This document shows positions 22,007 to 33,167 of a stretch of 33,590 nt of DNA, piece by piece. Under the pieces are notes generated by a model that searched no databases, was not told where the DNA came from, and worked only from the letters and a program-made list of their open reading frames with translations. The DNA lies in the NCBI GenBank assembly GCA_003662995.1, contig QMZC01000018.1, positions 1 to 33,590 on the forward strand, read 5' to 3'. Positions within the stretch are counted from its first letter, which is position 1. Each line of letters opens with the position of its first letter. Position numbers and translations under genes: made by a program. This DNA comes from Archaeoglobales archaeon. GTDB lineage: Archaea > Halobacteriota > Archaeoglobi > Archaeoglobales > Archaeoglobaceae.

Positions 22007-22720
22007 TCAAAGTTGTTTACTGTTGAAATACTTTTCAGCTTGCATCAGTCTCTTGCAATTTTCGCAAAGAATATCCTTAACACCCAGTTTTTCATAGTGT
22101 CTCTCAGTCAAAACTTCCTTTCCACACCTCACACATCTCAGTAGTTTATGTTCTGACAAAACCCTATCTCCGACCATCAACTTACCATTCTCAAACCTAA
22201 TTGCCCCAGTTGGGCAGAGATTTGTACATGCCAAACAACCAACACAGAATTCTGTTGGAATTCCAAATGGTGCGTTTACTCTCCTTTCAACGCCTCTGTT
22301 TTCAAATGAAATTGCTGAAATGCCAATGAGGTTGCAAACGTTGACGCACAAACCACACAGCACACATTTCTTATCTCCTTTAACCTCTATTTTGTACAGA
22401 GATGCAAGTTCTTTTACAATTTCCGATGACGTGTGGTTTGCAAGCAATTCAACAACTCCTTTTCTTAACTCCCAGATTCTTTGCGATTTTGTTCTTACCT
22501 TCATTCCTTCTTTGACGTCTGTAGAGCATGATGTTACTATTCTCCATCCATCTCCATTCTCTTTAACCTCCACCAAACAAAGTCTGCAGGCACCATAACT
22601 TCCAATGGCTTTGTGATAGCAGAGGTGTGGAATGTCAAAACCTAAGTCAATCAAAACATCAAGGAGCTTGCCCTTTTTAACTTCGTAATTTTTTCCATCA
22701 ACTTCAATTTTTATTGCCAT
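22007..22720 (-). CDS. NuoG/HoxU-like iron-sulfur subunit of the CODH-linked dehydrogenase
   Basis: This 237-residue subunit is predicted to carry electrons within the diaphorase. Residues 34, 45, 48 and 65 form a plant-type [2Fe-2S] site (CYHK, CRLCLVE). C119/122/125/129 and C159/162/165/169 form two [4Fe-4S] clusters. The His-Cys3 cluster region normally found between these in NuoG and HoxU has no cysteine. A C-terminal CxxC-x19-CxxC pair (196/199, 219/222) could bind another metal. Start 22720 follows GGTGGT. It lies 19 bp after the nuoF-like gene and ends the operon. Confidence 0.85.
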   Translation of the reverse strand: MAIKIEVDGKNYEVKKGKLLDVLIDLGFDIPHLCYHKAIGSYGACRLCLVEVKENGDGWRIVTSCSTDVKEGMKVRTKSQRIWELRKGVVELLANHTSSEIVKELASLYKIEVKGDKKCVLCGLCVNVCNLIGISAISFENRGVERRVNAPFGIPTEFCVGCLACTNLCPTGAIRFENGKLMVGDRVLSEHKLLRCVRCGKEVLTERHYEKLGVKDILCENCKRLMQAEKYFNSKQL

Positions 22721-22739
22721 TGCCACCACCTACAATTAC

Positions 22740-24536
22740 CTACCATCTTTCAACTGCTTCAAACTTGCAAACGTTAAAGCATGAACCGCATTTGATGCAT
22801 TTTTTATCGTCTATTTTGTAAACTTCATCAACTTCTTCAATCGCATCGGCGGGACAATTCAGCTTACACAAACCACAGCCTGTGCATTTGTCTTCAACAA
22901 TCCTGTATCTTACAAGAGCCCTGCAAATTCCTGCCAGGCACACTCCTTTTATGTGCTCCTCGTATTCTTCTTTGAAATATCTCAATGTGGTCAACAGGGG
23001 GTTTGGTGCAGTCTTTCCAAATCCGCAAAGTGATGTATTTGCCACTACATCTGCTAACCTTTCAAGTTCTTCAAGGTCGTTCAAGCTCCCTTCACCTTTT
23101 GTTATTCTTTCTATTATATCTACCATCTCTGCCAAACCCAATCTGCAAGGCACACATTTTCCACAAGACTCAATCTTTGAAAATTCGAGGAAGTACTTCG
23201 CAACATCCACCATGCATGTAGCATTGTCTAACACAACCATTCCACCTGAACCCATGATTGAGCCAAGTTTTGTTAATTCTTCGTAATCAACAGCCACATC
23301 CATCAGATTTTTAGGTACACAACCACCAGTGGGACCACCAGTTTGAACGGCTTTTACGTTTTCAGCCATGCCTATCTCTTCAACAACCTCTCTAAGGCTT
23401 ATTCCCATAGGGACTTCTATAAGTCCTGAGTTTTTGACTTTGCCAACCAATGAGAATACTTTTGTCCCCTTACTCTTTTCAGTACCTAACGATGCAAAAA
23501 ATTTCCAGCCATTAAGTATTATGGGAGAGATGTTTGCCCAAGTCTCAACGTTGTTTATTACCGTTGGCTTTCCCCACAATCCTTTTTCTGCTGGATACGG
23601 CGGTCTAATTCTCGGCTCACCGATGTAACCTTCTATAGATGCTATTAAAGCCGTTTCCTCACCACAAACAAAGGCTCCTGCCCCTCTGACAACGTGTATA
23701 TCGAATGAGAAATCTGTATTCATGATGTTCTTGCCGAGAAAGCCGTATTTCTTTGCAATTTCAATCACCTTTTCAATCCTTTTAACAGCCAATGGATATT
23801 CGTTTCTTACATAAACAAACCCCAACTCAGCACCTATTGCATATGCTCCAATTGTCATGCCCTCTATAACGCTGAACGGGTCTCCTTCAAGCACACTTCT
23901 GTCCATGTACGCTCCAGGATCGCCCTCATCAGCGTTGCAGATCACGTATTTCTCACCCTCATTCTTTCTTGCTATCTCCCATTTCAAACCTGTGGGAAAT
24001 CCCGCTCCACCTCTACCACGTAATCCCGATTTTTTCACCTCTTCAACAACATCTTCAGGCTTTTTCTCAAGAACTTTCTGTAAAGCGCAATAGCCGCCCA
24101 TCGCTACATACTGGTTGATGCTTAAGGGCTCAATAATTCCACAATTCCTTAAAACAATCTTTACCTGCTTTCTGTAGAATGGATGCTCTATTAGCCTTGG
24201 ACACTCTCTATAGCCTTCCAACTCGGGATGCTCAAGTTTCAGTGGTGAAAACTCCCAAGGGTAGAACCATCCTAAAATCTCAGCTTCTTCAATTTTTTCA
24301 GTTTTCTTTACATTTCTGTAAACTAAAGCTGCTTTTCCGTCTTCTTGCACATAAACTAAGGGTTCTGCAGAACAAAAACCCAAACAACCAACCTCAACAA
24401 CGTTTTTCGTATCGTCTAAAGCTAAAACTTCCAAAACTTCCAAAGCTCCTGCAGCTACACCGCAGGTTGAGGTTCCAACAGCAATTCTATCGCCATACAA
24501 CTCATCAATCCCTTTTTCTTTAAGCTTATCGAGCAT
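22740..24536 (-). CDS. NuoF/HoxF/HndC-like NAD(P)H- and FMN-binding subunit
   Basis: This flavoprotein of about 598 residues would exchange electrons with NAD(P). Order: a thioredoxin-like domain (STCGVAAGA; GCLGFCSAEP) with three cysteines (25, 51, 55); the FMN/NADH domain with GRGGAGFPTGLKWE (about 174-187) and CNADEGDPGAYMDR; SLBB-like segment; SCGKCVPCRLG ([4Fe-4S]); and a C-terminal two-cluster ferredoxin domain (CTGCGLC, CIKCGSC). This layout is that of HndC/HydB and NADH-dependent formate dehydrogenase beta subunits. ATG 24536 follows AGGGG; earlier ATGs would overlap the nuoE-like gene further. NAD versus NADP preference cannot be read from sequence. Confidence 0.93.
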   Translation of the reverse strand: MLDKLKEKGIDELYGDRIAVGTSTCGVAAGALEVLEVLALDDTKNVVEVGCLGFCSAEPLVYVQEDGKAALVYRNVKKTEKIEEAEILGWFYPWEFSPLKLEHPELEGYRECPRLIEHPFYRKQVKIVLRNCGIIEPLSINQYVAMGGYCALQKVLEKKPEDVVEEVKKSGLRGRGGAGFPTGLKWEIARKNEGEKYVICNADEGDPGAYMDRSVLEGDPFSVIEGMTIGAYAIGAELGFVYVRNEYPLAVKRIEKVIEIAKKYGFLGKNIMNTDFSFDIHVVRGAGAFVCGEETALIASIEGYIGEPRIRPPYPAEKGLWGKPTVINNVETWANISPIILNGWKFFASLGTEKSKGTKVFSLVGKVKNSGLIEVPMGISLREVVEEIGMAENVKAVQTGGPTGGCVPKNLMDVAVDYEELTKLGSIMGSGGMVVLDNATCMVDVAKYFLEFSKIESCGKCVPCRLGLAEMVDIIERITKGEGSLNDLEELERLADVVANTSLCGFGKTAPNPLLTTLRYFKEEYEEHIKGVCLAGICRALVRYRIVEDKCTGCGLCKLNCPADAIEEVDEVYKIDDKKCIKCGSCFNVCKFEAVERW

Positions 24537-24954
24537 CTTCATCCCCTTTTGATGTCTTATCCTTATCCTCAAACAGCTTAGGCACCATTTTCTTCAAACG
24601 GCTCACAGTCATCTTTCCGTAAACCTTGCCGTCAATAACAACAACTGGAGCTAAACTACAGGCACCAAAGCACCTTATTGGCTGATACGTAAAATCTTCA
24701 TCATCCAGAATTCCCAGTTGTTTTAAGGTGTCTTCAAAAACTCCCGAACCTCCCATAACGCAAGCAGTTCCTTTACATACATGAATAACATGCTTCCCAA
24801 CGGGTTTTAGTGAGAAGGCATTGTAAAAGGTTGCTATGCTATAAATCCTGCTTATTGGAACGTTGAACTCTACAGAAATTCTTTCCATTTCATCTTTTGG
24901 CAGATAGCCATGCTTATTCTGAATTTCAAGCAAAGAGTTTATGAGGAATTTCAT
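24526..24954 (-). CDS. NuoE/HoxE-like [2Fe-2S] thioredoxin-fold subunit
   Basis: This 142-residue subunit binds one [2Fe-2S] cluster through C60, C65 (CKGTAC), C95 and C99 (CFGAC). The N-terminal helical bundle contains GYLPKDEMERIS and IYSIATFYNAF, as in NuoE. It overlaps the nuoF-like gene by 11 bases and follows cooS by 48 bp, so it is read as part of the same transcript. Confidence 0.93.
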   Translation of the reverse strand: MKFLINSLLEIQNKHGYLPKDEMERISVEFNVPISRIYSIATFYNAFSLKPVGKHVIHVCKGTACVMGGSGVFEDTLKQLGILDDEDFTYQPIRCFGACSLAPVVVIDGKVYGKMTVSRLKKMVPKLFEDKDKTSKGDEDAR

Positions 24955-25002
24955 TTAATCACCTTTTAATTCAATCATCTGATACAAAAAACGAAAAATA
25001 AA

Positions 25003-26901
25003 TTAGATTCCAAGTTTTTTCCTCTTCTCCATTATTATTTCTTCCATTTTTTCAACCGTTTTTATTGGATCACCCTCTATAAAGAAATAGCCACCAAGCA
25101 ATTCTTTCACGTCTTCAGTCAAAATCTTAGTGACTTTCTCACTCCCCAATACTGGTGGTACAGGCCATAGATGTACGGGGATTCCGGAAGCTATGAAGTA
25201 CGTTCCAATTGAGACTGCTTTCTCAGTATACCACTCTGGAGCGGATCCAACCAATGGTAGATCAGAGATGTCCACGTTTAGGTAATCTGCGATTGCCCCA
25301 GCCAAAACGAGCATTCTCGAACAGTCAACACACGAGCCCATGTGTAAGACGGGAGGAATGTTTAAAGCCTGACACACGCTTTTCAGTCCATCTCCTGCTA
25401 GGTTTACAGCATCCATCGTCATCAATCCAGCTTTTGCGGCAGCTATTGCCCAGCATCCCGTGCCTATAACAAGAATATCCCTTGAAATTAATTCTTTGGT
25501 TAAAGTTACATGGAAGTAATCTTGCTTAACCTTTGGATTGTTGCAACCAACGATTCCAGCAACCCCCTTAATTTTACCTTCAACTATCACATCTACAATC
25601 GGCTTAACACTTCCACCTAAAGCCTTCAGTATCTGTTCAACACTGAAACCAACAATAGCCTTGCTCTTCTGTTTTGGAACGTAAATCTTGGATTTGTCCC
25701 TCTTGCTGTAAGCTTCGATGGCTTTCTCGATTATCTTCTTTGCAGTCTCAATAGCTTTATCTTCTTCAAACTGAATGTGTATGCCTTTCTCAAACTTAGC
25801 CTGTTCGCTGGTTGAAATAAACGCGGTATGGAAGCAGTCAGCCAACTCCGCCAAAGCCGGGAAGATGCATTGCACATCAACAACCATCGCATCTATTGCT
25901 CTCGTGATAATAGAAAGTTCTGAATGCAGAATGTTTCCTGCTATCGGCACTCCTTGTCTCATTAAAATTTCATTGCCCGTACAACACATACCCATGAGGT
26001 TTATTCCCTTAGCACCAGCTTGCTTTGCCTTCTCCTGCATCTCCTCGCTTTCAGCCACCTCAACAATTTTCTCAGATAACACAGGTTCGTGTCCATGGAC
26101 AACTATGTTTACGTAATCTGGATCAATGATGCCAAGATTTGCCTCAACTTCCTTAACCATCGGCGTTCCGAAGAGTATATCCTGAAATTCTGTTGCAATC
26201 AATGAACCACCCCAACCATCTGCCAAAGCAGCCCTGATGCCCTGAGCCAACAACGACAAAGCTTCGTTATCAACACCAATGTGTGTTCTGTGCATTATGT
26301 CCACAACTTCCCTATCTATGTTCCTTGGCAGTATCTTGATTTTTGCGTTGGTCGATAAAACCTCTTCAACCTTCTTCCACAACTCAATTCTTTTTTTAGG
26401 AGCATAAGCCATCAAGAACTTTATCGGCTCTTCATCCTGCTTACCAAAATCGTTTAAAGCAATTTCAGCAACCTTTAATGCTATTTCATTAACCTCCGCA
26501 TTCACATCAACACCAAGTTTTTGAGCCACAGCCTTAAGCTTGTCAACATCCTTTATCTGATAATCTTTGTTTTTCCCTTCAGCGACTTCCTTTAGAAGTA
26601 TTGCAGGTCTTCTTCCATGATCGGAATGTGCCGAAGCTCCACCAGCGATCATCCTGTCAACATTTCTTGCAACGATCACGTCTGCAGTTGCACCACAAAC
26701 ACCTCTTTGAGGCTCATCACCGAATGGATTTATTCTGCAAGGCCCCATCGTGCAATTTCTGCAACAAACACCAAGCAATCCAAAACCACATTGGGGCTGT
26801 TGTTTTTCCAGCCTTTTCCAAGCAGTCTCATAACCCTCCTTCTTTACTATTTCGAGCATCTCCAAAGCTGCAGGATCAAAACTTTTTTCCACATTATCCA
26901 T
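25003..26901 (-). CDS. cooS: Anaerobic Ni-Fe carbon monoxide dehydrogenase, catalytic subunit
   Basis: The enzyme interconverts CO and CO2 at a Ni-Fe-S C-cluster. The 632 residues align well with monofunctional CooS. D- and B-cluster cysteines are C38, C46, C47, C50, C55 and C69. C-cluster ligands can be placed at VHGHEP (His269/271), GMCCTGN (C307), VQCIFP (C345), VGCNNP (C453), TGCWA (C483) and GSCVDC (C524, the Ni ligand). The catalytic Lys fits TEKAVSIG (561). All key residues are present, so it should be active. No cooC, cooJ or acetyl-CoA synthase subunit is nearby. It starts four bases after cooF. Confidence 0.96.
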   Translation of the reverse strand: MDNVEKSFDPAALEMLEIVKKEGYETAWKRLEKQQPQCGFGLLGVCCRNCTMGPCRINPFGDEPQRGVCGATADVIVARNVDRMIAGGASAHSDHGRRPAILLKEVAEGKNKDYQIKDVDKLKAVAQKLGVDVNAEVNEIALKVAEIALNDFGKQDEEPIKFLMAYAPKKRIELWKKVEEVLSTNAKIKILPRNIDREVVDIMHRTHIGVDNEALSLLAQGIRAALADGWGGSLIATEFQDILFGTPMVKEVEANLGIIDPDYVNIVVHGHEPVLSEKIVEVAESEEMQEKAKQAGAKGINLMGMCCTGNEILMRQGVPIAGNILHSELSIITRAIDAMVVDVQCIFPALAELADCFHTAFISTSEQAKFEKGIHIQFEEDKAIETAKKIIEKAIEAYSKRDKSKIYVPKQKSKAIVGFSVEQILKALGGSVKPIVDVIVEGKIKGVAGIVGCNNPKVKQDYFHVTLTKELISRDILVIGTGCWAIAAAKAGLMTMDAVNLAGDGLKSVCQALNIPPVLHMGSCVDCSRMLVLAGAIADYLNVDISDLPLVGSAPEWYTEKAVSIGTYFIASGIPVHLWPVPPVLGSEKVTKILTEDVKELLGGYFFIEGDPIKTVEKMEEIIMEKRKKLGI

Positions 26902-26905
26902 AAAA

Positions 26906-27472
26906 TCACCCCATAACCCAAATCAAATCTCTAAAAGTGGCTGTTGTTTTTGATATCTCTTCCTTAGCCTCTCTCTCCACCTCTCTCGCATAAACAAACT
27001 TCTTTGCCGCCTCAACTTTCTCTCTTTTGGCAATCTCTTCAACTCTTTCAAACTTCAAAGCATTAACTGGACAAGCTTCAACACAAGCTGGCATCAATCC
27101 ATTTGCAAGTCTCTCGTTGCACTGATCACACTTGTAAGCCACTTTTTCAAACTTTATAGCCCCATAAGGGCAAACTACAACACAACTTCTACATCCTATG
27201 CACCTCGATGTGTCAATAACCACTGGTCCATCCTTGCTTACCCTATCAATAGCCCCAGTTGGGCAAACTTCCAAGCATGGGGCATTGTCGCAATGCCTAC
27301 AATTCATCGGAACCGGAACTCCAACATAAACGACATCCATGTGCGGTTTTACTCTTTGCAAAACAGCTGAAACCAAATCTTTTCCCTTTGAATGCTCAAT
27401 GGCACAAGCAATCTCGCACGTTTTGCATCCGAGACACAAATCAATGTCTGGGTAGAGAACAAACTGGTACAT
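26906..27472 (-). CDS. cooF: CooF-like ferredoxin with four [4Fe-4S] clusters
   Basis: This electron carrier takes electrons from CooS. The 188 residues hold 16 cysteines in four groups: 13/16/19/23, 58/61/66/70, 91/94/97/101 and 115/118/130/134, the dimethylsulfoxide-reductase-B/CooF pattern. The C-terminal ~50 residues are charged and helical. ATG 27472 is chosen because GGGTG precedes it and the upstream extension (from 27499) is not family-like. It is the first gene of the operon, directly preceding cooS. Confidence 0.9.
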   Translation of the reverse strand: MYQFVLYPDIDLCLGCKTCEIACAIEHSKGKDLVSAVLQRVKPHMDVVYVGVPVPMNCRHCDNAPCLEVCPTGAIDRVSKDGPVVIDTSRCIGCRSCVVVCPYGAIKFEKVAYKCDQCNERLANGLMPACVEACPVNALKFERVEEIAKREKVEAAKKFVYAREVEREAKEEISKTTATFRDLIWVMG

Positions 27473-27605
27473 CTTAAGCACCCAATTTAACATTATCATT
27501 CATGAATTTAAGTTTGCTGTTCACTTTTGATTATCATAAGAACAAAGTAGAATAATTTGTGAATTAATAAGATTTTCTAAATTATTTTTTAATTTAATTA
27601 ATAAT
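27473..27605 (-). promoter_or_regulatory. AT-rich promoter region of the coo-nuo operon
   Basis: This 133-bp spacer between the regulator remnant and cooF is very AT-rich. Several TATA-like stretches occur on the minus strand (for example TTATTAATTC at 27562-27571). An inverted repeat, AATAATTT (27551-27558) with AAATTATT (27579-27586), may mark an operator, but such AT repeats also arise by chance here. Confidence 0.4.
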
Positions 27606-28320
27606 CTACAATTTTTTATCTAAACGAACATCAAACTCACAGTATTCGTAGCCAGTCCCCCAGCACTTCGTTTCTATTGCAAATGCTGGTCTTTTAAGTT
27701 CCAGCCATCAATCCACCTTCAAAGTAACATACAGTCTTACCGATGTTTGGCATACCTGAGCAACTCACACACTCGTATATTCTAATGTTAACAACATCAT
27801 CTCTACACTTTTCAAGCTCAAGAATGCCAATTCTGAGTTTCTCAAAAATTTTAGCTAATCCGTTAAATATGTCCTCATTGCTACCACTTTCTACAATTTC
27901 TGGAGACACTTCTCTGGCTATTTCCTGACCAATTCTGAACATTATACTGTCAGCACCACTCATTAGGATTAACGCCATCCTTTCAAGCCTGAAAAGGTGT
28001 AAAGAAATAAAATCGCCCAGTCTCTTTCTTATCGGTTCGGATTCCTCACTCTTTAGCATTCTAAGTATATATGGCTTTTCAGCCTCGTGAATTATATACT
28101 TTGCCTCTAAATAATTCTCAGACAGATACCAAAGTTTTGCAGGGCCTATAGGCCTATAATCTACAAAGCCCCTTGCTTTTAGAATTTCTAAGTGTCTCGA
28201 TACAGTCATTCTATTTAATCCCGTAAGGTTAGCAATTTGAGATGTTGACAAACCGTGGGGATGTTTTTTCAAAGTTTCAACAATCCTTGTATCAATGTTG
28301 TTTTGGGTAACCGCACGCAT
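27606..28320 (-). pseudogene. HTH + V4R-domain (MsvR-like) regulator with a C-terminal frameshift
   Basis: This is a transcription factor with an ArsR-like winged helix (LSTSQIANLTGLNRMTVSRH, about 24-43) and a V4R ligand/redox domain (about 90 onward, with CVSCSGMPNIGKTVC). Translation stops at 27694-27696 after 208 residues, inside V4R. The missing end is readable in another frame: after a one-base shift near 27697-27700 the sequence continues LKRPAFAIETKCWGTGYEYC to a stop at 27606-27608, which is the conserved V4R terminus. V4R regulators of the MsvR type use cysteines for redox sensing in methanogens. It lies directly upstream of the coo operon on the same strand. Whether the short form is functional, or the shift a sequence error, is open. 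Confidence 0.8.
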
Positions 28321-32124: not shown

Positions 32125-33167
32125 TTGTATGGGTTTTTAGAGTTGGAGGAGGATGTTATAAAAAATGGTTTTTGCACGTATTGCGGTGCATGTAGTTCAT
32201 TTTGTAAGAACATTGTTCTAAACGAGACACCACGCATGGTTGGAAGTTGTGTTTTAACGCATGAGAACGTAATAAGTTGCGGTAAGAAGGGATTGTGTTA
32301 CGACATCTGCCCAGTAACACCTCTTGATGAAAGAATCGTTGAGATGAAGTTTCTTGATGGAAAGAAGGATGATCTCATTGGAAAATATTTGGAAGTTACT
32401 GCTGGAAGGTCGCACATTGAAGGTCAGGATGGTGGAATGGTGTCATCAATTCTCCAAAAGGGTCTTGAAATGGGCTATGAGTGTGCAATAGTGGCAATGA
32501 AAAAAGATGGTTTTGATGCAGTGCCATCAATAGCCAAATCGTATCAAGACATTCTTGAGGCAAAGGGTACAAAGTACGTTAGCGTACCAATGATGTCCAA
32601 GCTCAAAGAAGCTGTTAAATCGGGGTTTAGGAAAATAATGATTGTTGCCACCCATGCGGTGTGAAGGCAGCTAGAAAAATACAGTTAAATCTTTTCGGTG
32701 ATGTTATTAAACTAATGATAGTGGGGTATGTTATTAAACTAATGATAGTGGGGTTGTTCTGTTTTGAAAGTTTTAACTATGATGCTTTAAGGAATAGGGT
32801 TGAGGAAATATTAGGAATAGATATCGATGAGGCTAAAAAGATTCAGATTAGTAGGGGCAAATTTACCGTTAAGATGGATGATAAAATACACTCTATCAAT
32901 GTGTCAGATTTGGATGTAGCTGTCAGATATAACTGCAAATTCTGCCATGATTTCACAGCTAGGTTTGCTGATATTTCTGTTGGTTCAGTTGGCTCAAGGG
33001 AGGGATATTCTACAATAATTGTGAGATCTATGGAAGGTAAGCGAATTCTGGATGCAATCGATTTTGAAGAATCCTCTGTAAATCTGAATGGGTTGTATAA
33101 GGTATCATCGTTGAAAAGGAGAAAAGCTATTAAGAAAATTCCAAGAGGTATTAAAATTAATTTTTAA
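32125..33167 (+). pseudogene. FrhB-family (F420-hydrogenase/dehydrogenase beta subunit-like) gene, frameshifted
   Basis: The intact protein would be an iron-sulfur flavoprotein of the F420-reducing hydrogenase beta family. The 5' half has CTYCGACSSFC and GLCYDICPVTPLDE. It stops at 32664 just after VATHAV, where relatives read GTPC-x-VKAARK. One extra C in the CCC at 32651-32653 restores TPCGVKAARK and joins the 3' half (32661-33167), which has LFCFE, CKFCHDFTARFADISVGSVGS and a normal end. The 5' start is also odd: the ribosome site GGTGAT points to ATG 32129, but that frame ends after three codons unless one T is added to the TTTTT run; TTG 32125 opens the main frame. A 27-bp tandem duplication lies in the 3' half. 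Confidence 0.8.
32701..32754 (+). repeat. Perfect 27-bp tandem duplication
   Basis: Two identical 27-base units (32701-32727 and 32728-32754), each starting ATGTTATTAAACTAATGATA and ending GTGGGGT, lie within the FrhB-like gene. The unit length keeps frame and doubles nine residues (VIKLMIVGY) of a buried strand ahead of LFCFE. Perfect identity indicates a recent event. Confidence 0.95.

Follow-up and report, generated by a model that had tools for sequence, protein, structure and literature searches.

Control of archaeal CO dehydrogenases (CODH) is little known: in the literature searched, CorQR alone is named as an archaeal system responsive to CO, and no known CO regulator is present in 80 of 179 genomes that have Ni-CODH/hydrogenase loci (PMC13077300). 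The stretch of DNA analyzed here (hereafter the window; 33,590 nucleotides of contig QMZC01000018.1 from a heat-loving Archaeoglobales archaeon) carries a disrupted regulator gene directly upstream of a cooFS-nuoEFG operon. What did this gene encode, what might it have sensed, and is its disruption real? The reading that we favor, with a probability of about 0.62, is that it encoded a one-component, non-haem V4R regulator of cooFS-nuoEFG that has been disabled in the window by a 14-bp deletion.

The regulator gene, its lesion and its operon

A first-pass annotation had described the gene (Table 1) as an MsvR-like V4R regulator beside a CODH operon, cut by a frameshift. Its frames and coordinates are correct: the ORF runs from 28320 to 27694, ending in CYFEGGLMAGT followed by TAA at 27696-27694, and the peptide KRPAFAIETKCWGTGYEYCEFDVRLDKKL with its stop lies in a different frame, with its final base at 27606. 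Positions 38-61 of the V4R profile map to 27624-27695, and the remnant shares 27 of 29 residues with the tail read in frame in the orthologue from G001 (MAG AUK153, of the same genus as the window) and closely matches the tail in G032 (MAG GB_MAG3_049), so we judge it to be no chance match. Pfam detects HTH_IclR, HTH_24 and HTH_5 above cut-off in the window ORF, together with positions 3-31 of the 62 in the V4R profile (PF02830; 25.1 bits for this half domain against a cut-off of 31); the G001 orthologue covers positions 2-61 with 62.4 bits. The Pfam scan of the regulator found no haem-binding CRP-type or PAS sensor domain, and with the alignments it bears out the description of a disrupted HTH-V4R protein lacking a haem sensor. 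No relatives were found among viral contigs, and an AlphaFold model of the G001 protein, built on a four-row alignment, was unusable (mean pLDDT 33).

Table 1. Regulator gene, lesion and CODH operon in the window (positions count from its first nucleotide)
Feature	Position	Strand	Basis
Regulator ORF cut short at 208 aa; carries a winged HTH (approximately residues 7-57), a linker and the N-terminal half of V4R (Cys184, Cys187, Cys198)	27694..28320	(-)	ORF list, Pfam, alignment
14-bp deletion site and new stop (GGA ACT TAA)	27694..27702	(-)	DNA alignment with G001 and G032
Out-of-frame V4R C-terminus remnant KRPAFAIETKCWGTGYEYCEFDVRLDKKL, containing the conserved Glu and two of the conserved Cys	27606..27695	(-)	
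Conserved block spanning the cooF start and the bases ahead of it, candidate promoter/operator	27491..27539	(-)	three-genome alignment
cooF, Fe-S electron carrier	26906..27499	(-)	conserved order in three genomes
cooS, Ni-CODH catalytic subunit	25003..26901	(-)	TIGR01702, 789.7 bits (cut-off 478)
nuoE/hoxE-like subunit	24526..24954	(-)	
nuoF-like NADH/FMN subunit with ferredoxin domain	22740..24572	(-)	
nuoG/hoxU-like N-terminal Fe-S subunit	22007..22729	(-)	

The reading frame is broken with the net effect that the annotation had proposed, but the cause is not the single-base shift it suggested, which alignment rules out: relative to G001 and G032, 14 bp are missing from the window between GGAACTT and AAAAGACC, at a site where the orthologues read ...GGLMAGTYEIITKRPAFAIETKCWGTG... 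and ...GGLMAGAYEVITKRPAFAIETKCWGTG... The window and G001 proteins are 91% identical over the part common to both, and G001 does not end at the same point, carrying the V4R tail in frame. The deletion retains a Cys-x2-Cys pair and the first cysteine of a Cys-26-Cys-8-Cys set, and pushes a Glu and the last two cysteines out of frame. If the lesion is real and not an assembly error, the window copy would have been disabled recently.

The gene order regulator-cooF-cooS-nuoE-nuoF-nuoG is common to the window, G001 and G032, and the regulator lies directly upstream of cooF-cooS in all three genomes that carry it, in keeping with the position first assigned to it. The NuoEFG-like subunits suggest CO-dependent NAD reduction. 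The candidate promoter block ahead of cooF is almost unchanged in the three genomes and contains an archaeal TATA-like element, AAACTTAAAT.

Sensor site, relatives and signal

With few exceptions, the V4R regulators compared share the Cys-x2-Cys and Cys-26-Cys-8-Cys motifs and a conserved Glu three positions before the second cysteine of the latter. The five V4R cysteines counted in the first-pass annotation are present once the tail is included, at positions conserved across 16 other aligned V4R regulators. The spacing of 26 and 8 is that of C206, C232 and C240 in MaMsvR, changes to which affect DNA binding by this redox-responsive regulator (PMC3729527); G001 and G032 have the same three cysteines, the last two of which are out of frame in the window. 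MsvR also resembles the window regulator in size and in carrying an HTH and a C-terminal V4R domain in one chain. It differs in its gene neighbors, in having a TTCG-N7-9-CGAA box, absent from the window intergenic region, and in the separate, long-branched position of the window clade. Against the curated MsvR model NF053755, the window protein scores 69.6 bits and the G001 protein, with its tail intact, 81 (cut-off 220). Membership in MsvR was rejected on this basis, leaving "MsvR-like" apt for architecture and cysteines but not for family. The sensor domains of DmpR, MopR and PoxR likewise have the V4R scaffold and the same cysteine spacing, and bind zinc through three Cys and one Glu (cysteines 151, 177 and 185 in DmpR, with Glu172 given as a ligand; PMC7264223), but these are bacterial sigma54 activators that bind phenols, with another architecture and signal, and the offset of Glu172 is not that of the Glu in the regulators compared here. 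CooA and RcoM are also one-component regulators adjoining CODH genes; they sense through haem, and the contrast drawn with them at first pass is upheld by the Pfam scan.

A close precedent for non-haem control is CorQR, described in PMC6557876 (citing Kim 2015) as a CO-responsive, V4R-containing system next to CODH genes in Thermococcus, with the V4R domain in CorR and a LysR-type HTH in CorQ. A V4R regulator beside CODH is, by that account, already known, so the "new type of CO control" claimed at first pass was too strong. What differs, as far as gene structure indicates, is the fusion of V4R to a non-LysR HTH upstream of cooF: CorQR of Thermococcus onnurineus is likewise a non-haem regulator with its V4R protein beside the CODH cluster, but consists of two proteins. 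The original CorQR paper reportedly makes the reverse assignment, with V4R in CorQ and the HTH in CorR.

In a genome neighborhood survey, V4R-CODH linkage was seen again in several lineages. Archaeoglobaceae show three layouts, of which the window type is the first (A). In the second (B), an ArsR-type HTH-V4R gene points away from cooS and, on contigs that extend far enough, two CydA-like genes come after cooS; the regulator is directly adjacent in G009, G019, G028 and G069, separated by two small ORFs in G012 and on a short contig in G030. In four genomes of this layout, cooS is preceded at 17-18 bp by the inverted repeat GTTAGA-N6-TCTAAC, which is absent from the window region. Loci of this kind, with cooS and two CydA-like (PF01654) membrane genes, were observed at L130 (8375-12880) and at L129, L132 and L133 (in G028, G069, G012 and G009); it is possible, from gene content, that the layout B operon represents a CODH linked to a cytochrome-bd-like complex. 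The third layout (C), in G017 (L100, 6576-11774), comprises a V4R protein, a LysR-type HTH protein, cooF, cooS and a CooC-like ATPase, matching CorQR in gene layout.

Outside the family, V4R regulators diverge from cooS in G048, G057 and G085 (L138, L139 and L140), with a GNAT gene between in G048, and these proteins are MsvR by NF053755 (254-285 bits, cut-off 220). MsvR-type boxes are found upstream of cooS in G085 (TTCGTAATAATACGAA, at 34 bp) and G057 (TTCGTATTCTCACGAA, at 45 bp), each with a chance of about 0.3-0.4% per region in base-shuffled sequence, and between cooS and the GNAT gene in G048 (TTCGTGATTATACGAA). Because true MsvR adjoins cooS with such boxes upstream, the MsvR redox regulon is suggested to include CO metabolism. 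Overall, about 10 V4R-cooS pairs within 3 kb were counted by hand against about 0.5 expected (Poisson), the CODH genomes having given about 109 V4R hits and including related, non-independent genomes. CODH linkage changes at least four times on the tree, with the CorQ-like protein left out, and long branches weaken the placement of the window clade (86/85). A single common origin of CODH-linked V4R regulators was rejected on the tree (p-AU 3e-38). From this distribution, archaea seem to have recruited the V4R sensor family for CODH control more than once.

The first-pass annotation left the signal as CO or redox, and both halves of that statement survive, since the nearest named relatives and most relatives in Archaeoglobaceae indicate redox or oxygen sensing as much as CO. 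The other HTH-V4R genes examined in Archaeoglobaceae lie mostly beside rubrerythrin, often with CydA-like genes, and some lie beside a guaA-like gene; relatives of the window regulator have oxygen-defence neighbors as often as CODH neighbors. HTH-V4R genes adjoining rubrerythrin, some with CydA-like genes, were recorded at L142, L144-L146 and L149-L151, in Archaeoglobaceae and a sister family. We give even odds to the family controlling oxygen or redox defence and not CO use, a reading that contests the signal and not the anatomy: the regulator would sit beside cooF because this CODH works as a redox valve or has to be turned off under oxidation. The rubrerythrin and CydA-like neighbors and the redox response of MsvR favor redox sensing, as do the two CydA-like genes that follow cooS itself in layout B. 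Direct CO sensing is favored by CorQR, which is reported as CO-responsive, and the window operon contains no oxygen-defence gene.

Three lesions in three genomes

Neither intact nor further members of the window regulator clade were found in the 55 Archaeoglobaceae and 394 phylum genomes sampled, so the functional reading leans on relatives. The three copies carry three different lesions. Besides the 14-bp deletion in the window, in G001 unrelated sequence containing a TAA stands in place of the first ~20 codons, which puts the earliest remaining start codon within the HTH while the tail is kept, and in G032 a tandem duplication of 14 bp (CCGACAGCATAATG twice) leaves HTH and V4R as separate ORFs with a one-base overlap. 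Although every copy is disrupted somewhere, each domain survives whole in one genome or more. Regulators are broken in 3 of 3 cases and operon genes in 0 of 15 (five genes in three genomes; Fisher p 0.0012); as the regulator was picked because it is broken in the window, a fairer figure is about 0.014, from the two relatives and by share of length. Between the window and G001, the regulator has a dN/dS of 0.068 (dS 0.60), similar to cooF (0.098) and nuoG (0.091), and in comparison with G032 synonymous sites are near saturation. On these ratios purifying selection acted on the regulator through most of the time since divergence, and the lesions would therefore be recent or assembly errors.

The outer neighbors of the regulator-to-nuoG cassette (22007-28320 in the window, compared with L098 and L099) differ in each genome, implying that the cassette has relocated; its edge in G001 cuts into the 5′ end of the regulator. 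The nearest CooS proteins outside the clade in a named scan are bacterial (65-66% identical, from Thermodesulfobacteriota and Tharpella MAGs), and no V4R gene was found in the DNA flanking those genes, up to 7 kb on each side.

This mobility, the diversity of the lesions and the purifying selection still acting on the operon genes lend some support to parallel loss, whereby, in this branch of Archaeoglobaceae, the regulator became dispensable or harmful once a mobile CODH-Nuo cassette reached new sites and was disabled independently in each lineage, yielding constitutive expression. We put the odds somewhat below even, as only three genomes are involved and, with no sign yet of relaxed selection, three separate losses, all very recent, would be needed. 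Parallel loss is compatible with our favored reading and would supply a reason for the disablement.

It is unlikely, to our mind, that the lesion is an assembly or consensus artefact, with the gene whole in the living cells and the difference of 14 bp an error of the draft. All three regulator-bearing genomes are drafts (230 and about 100 contigs, and 187 for the window genome), purifying selection appears strong up to the present, and the G001 lesion could be a mis-join. The window also holds a second split gene 4.3 kb away, an FrhB-like gene (32125-33167, + strand) whose N part (PF04422) and C part (PF04432) occupy overlapping frames and which contains a perfect tandem duplication of 27 bp at 32701-32758, so that small lesions or errors do occur elsewhere on the contig. 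Against this, indels of 14 bp, such as this deletion and the clean tandem duplication in G032, are atypical of base-call errors, and in each of three separate assemblies the lesion lies within the regulator, with none in the 5.4 kb of operon genes.

Least probable by far is that the broken forms function, through recoding or reinitiation that yields the V4R tail or as two polypeptides like CorQ/CorR, since, for all that the stop of the G032 HTH ORF overlaps the ATG of its V4R ORF in a coupling-like layout and CorQR is itself a two-protein V4R/HTH system, the G032 split arose from a fresh tandem duplication, and a programmed +1 shift or separate translation of the window tail was rejected, the tail having no ATG, GTG or TTG and the stop no recognisable slippery site.

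Proposed role and meaning for CODH control

Under our favored reading, the gene would once have encoded a one-component, non-haem regulator coupling a winged-HTH DNA reader to a V4R sensor with a putative Cys/Cys/Cys/Glu metal or thiol site. The protein would presumably have occupied the promoter immediately ahead of cooF in dimeric form, tying expression of cooFS-nuoEFG, and with it CO oxidation and the passage of electrons to NAD, to redox or CO state, probably as a repressor and less probably as an activator, by analogy with MsvR. The 14-bp deletion would halve the V4R domain and take out three of the four candidate metal ligands, and the product is for this reason expected to have lost stability or the ability to sense, so that the operon would escape this control. 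Judging from the gene as it now stands in the window, regulated control of the operon has most likely been lost.

A broader proposal, tentative and rather doubtful, is that V4R-HTH constitutes a general non-haem module for archaeal CODH, recruited at least four times and including true MsvR, and that its cooFS-nuoEFG copy in Archaeoglobaceae is being lost in parallel through different small lesions in different vent populations, leading to constitutive CO oxidation. The repeated linkage of V4R genes to cooS, with matching operator-like sites, provides testable candidates for CODH control in archaea, and the three differently broken copies, if real, would constitute a natural experiment on losing it.
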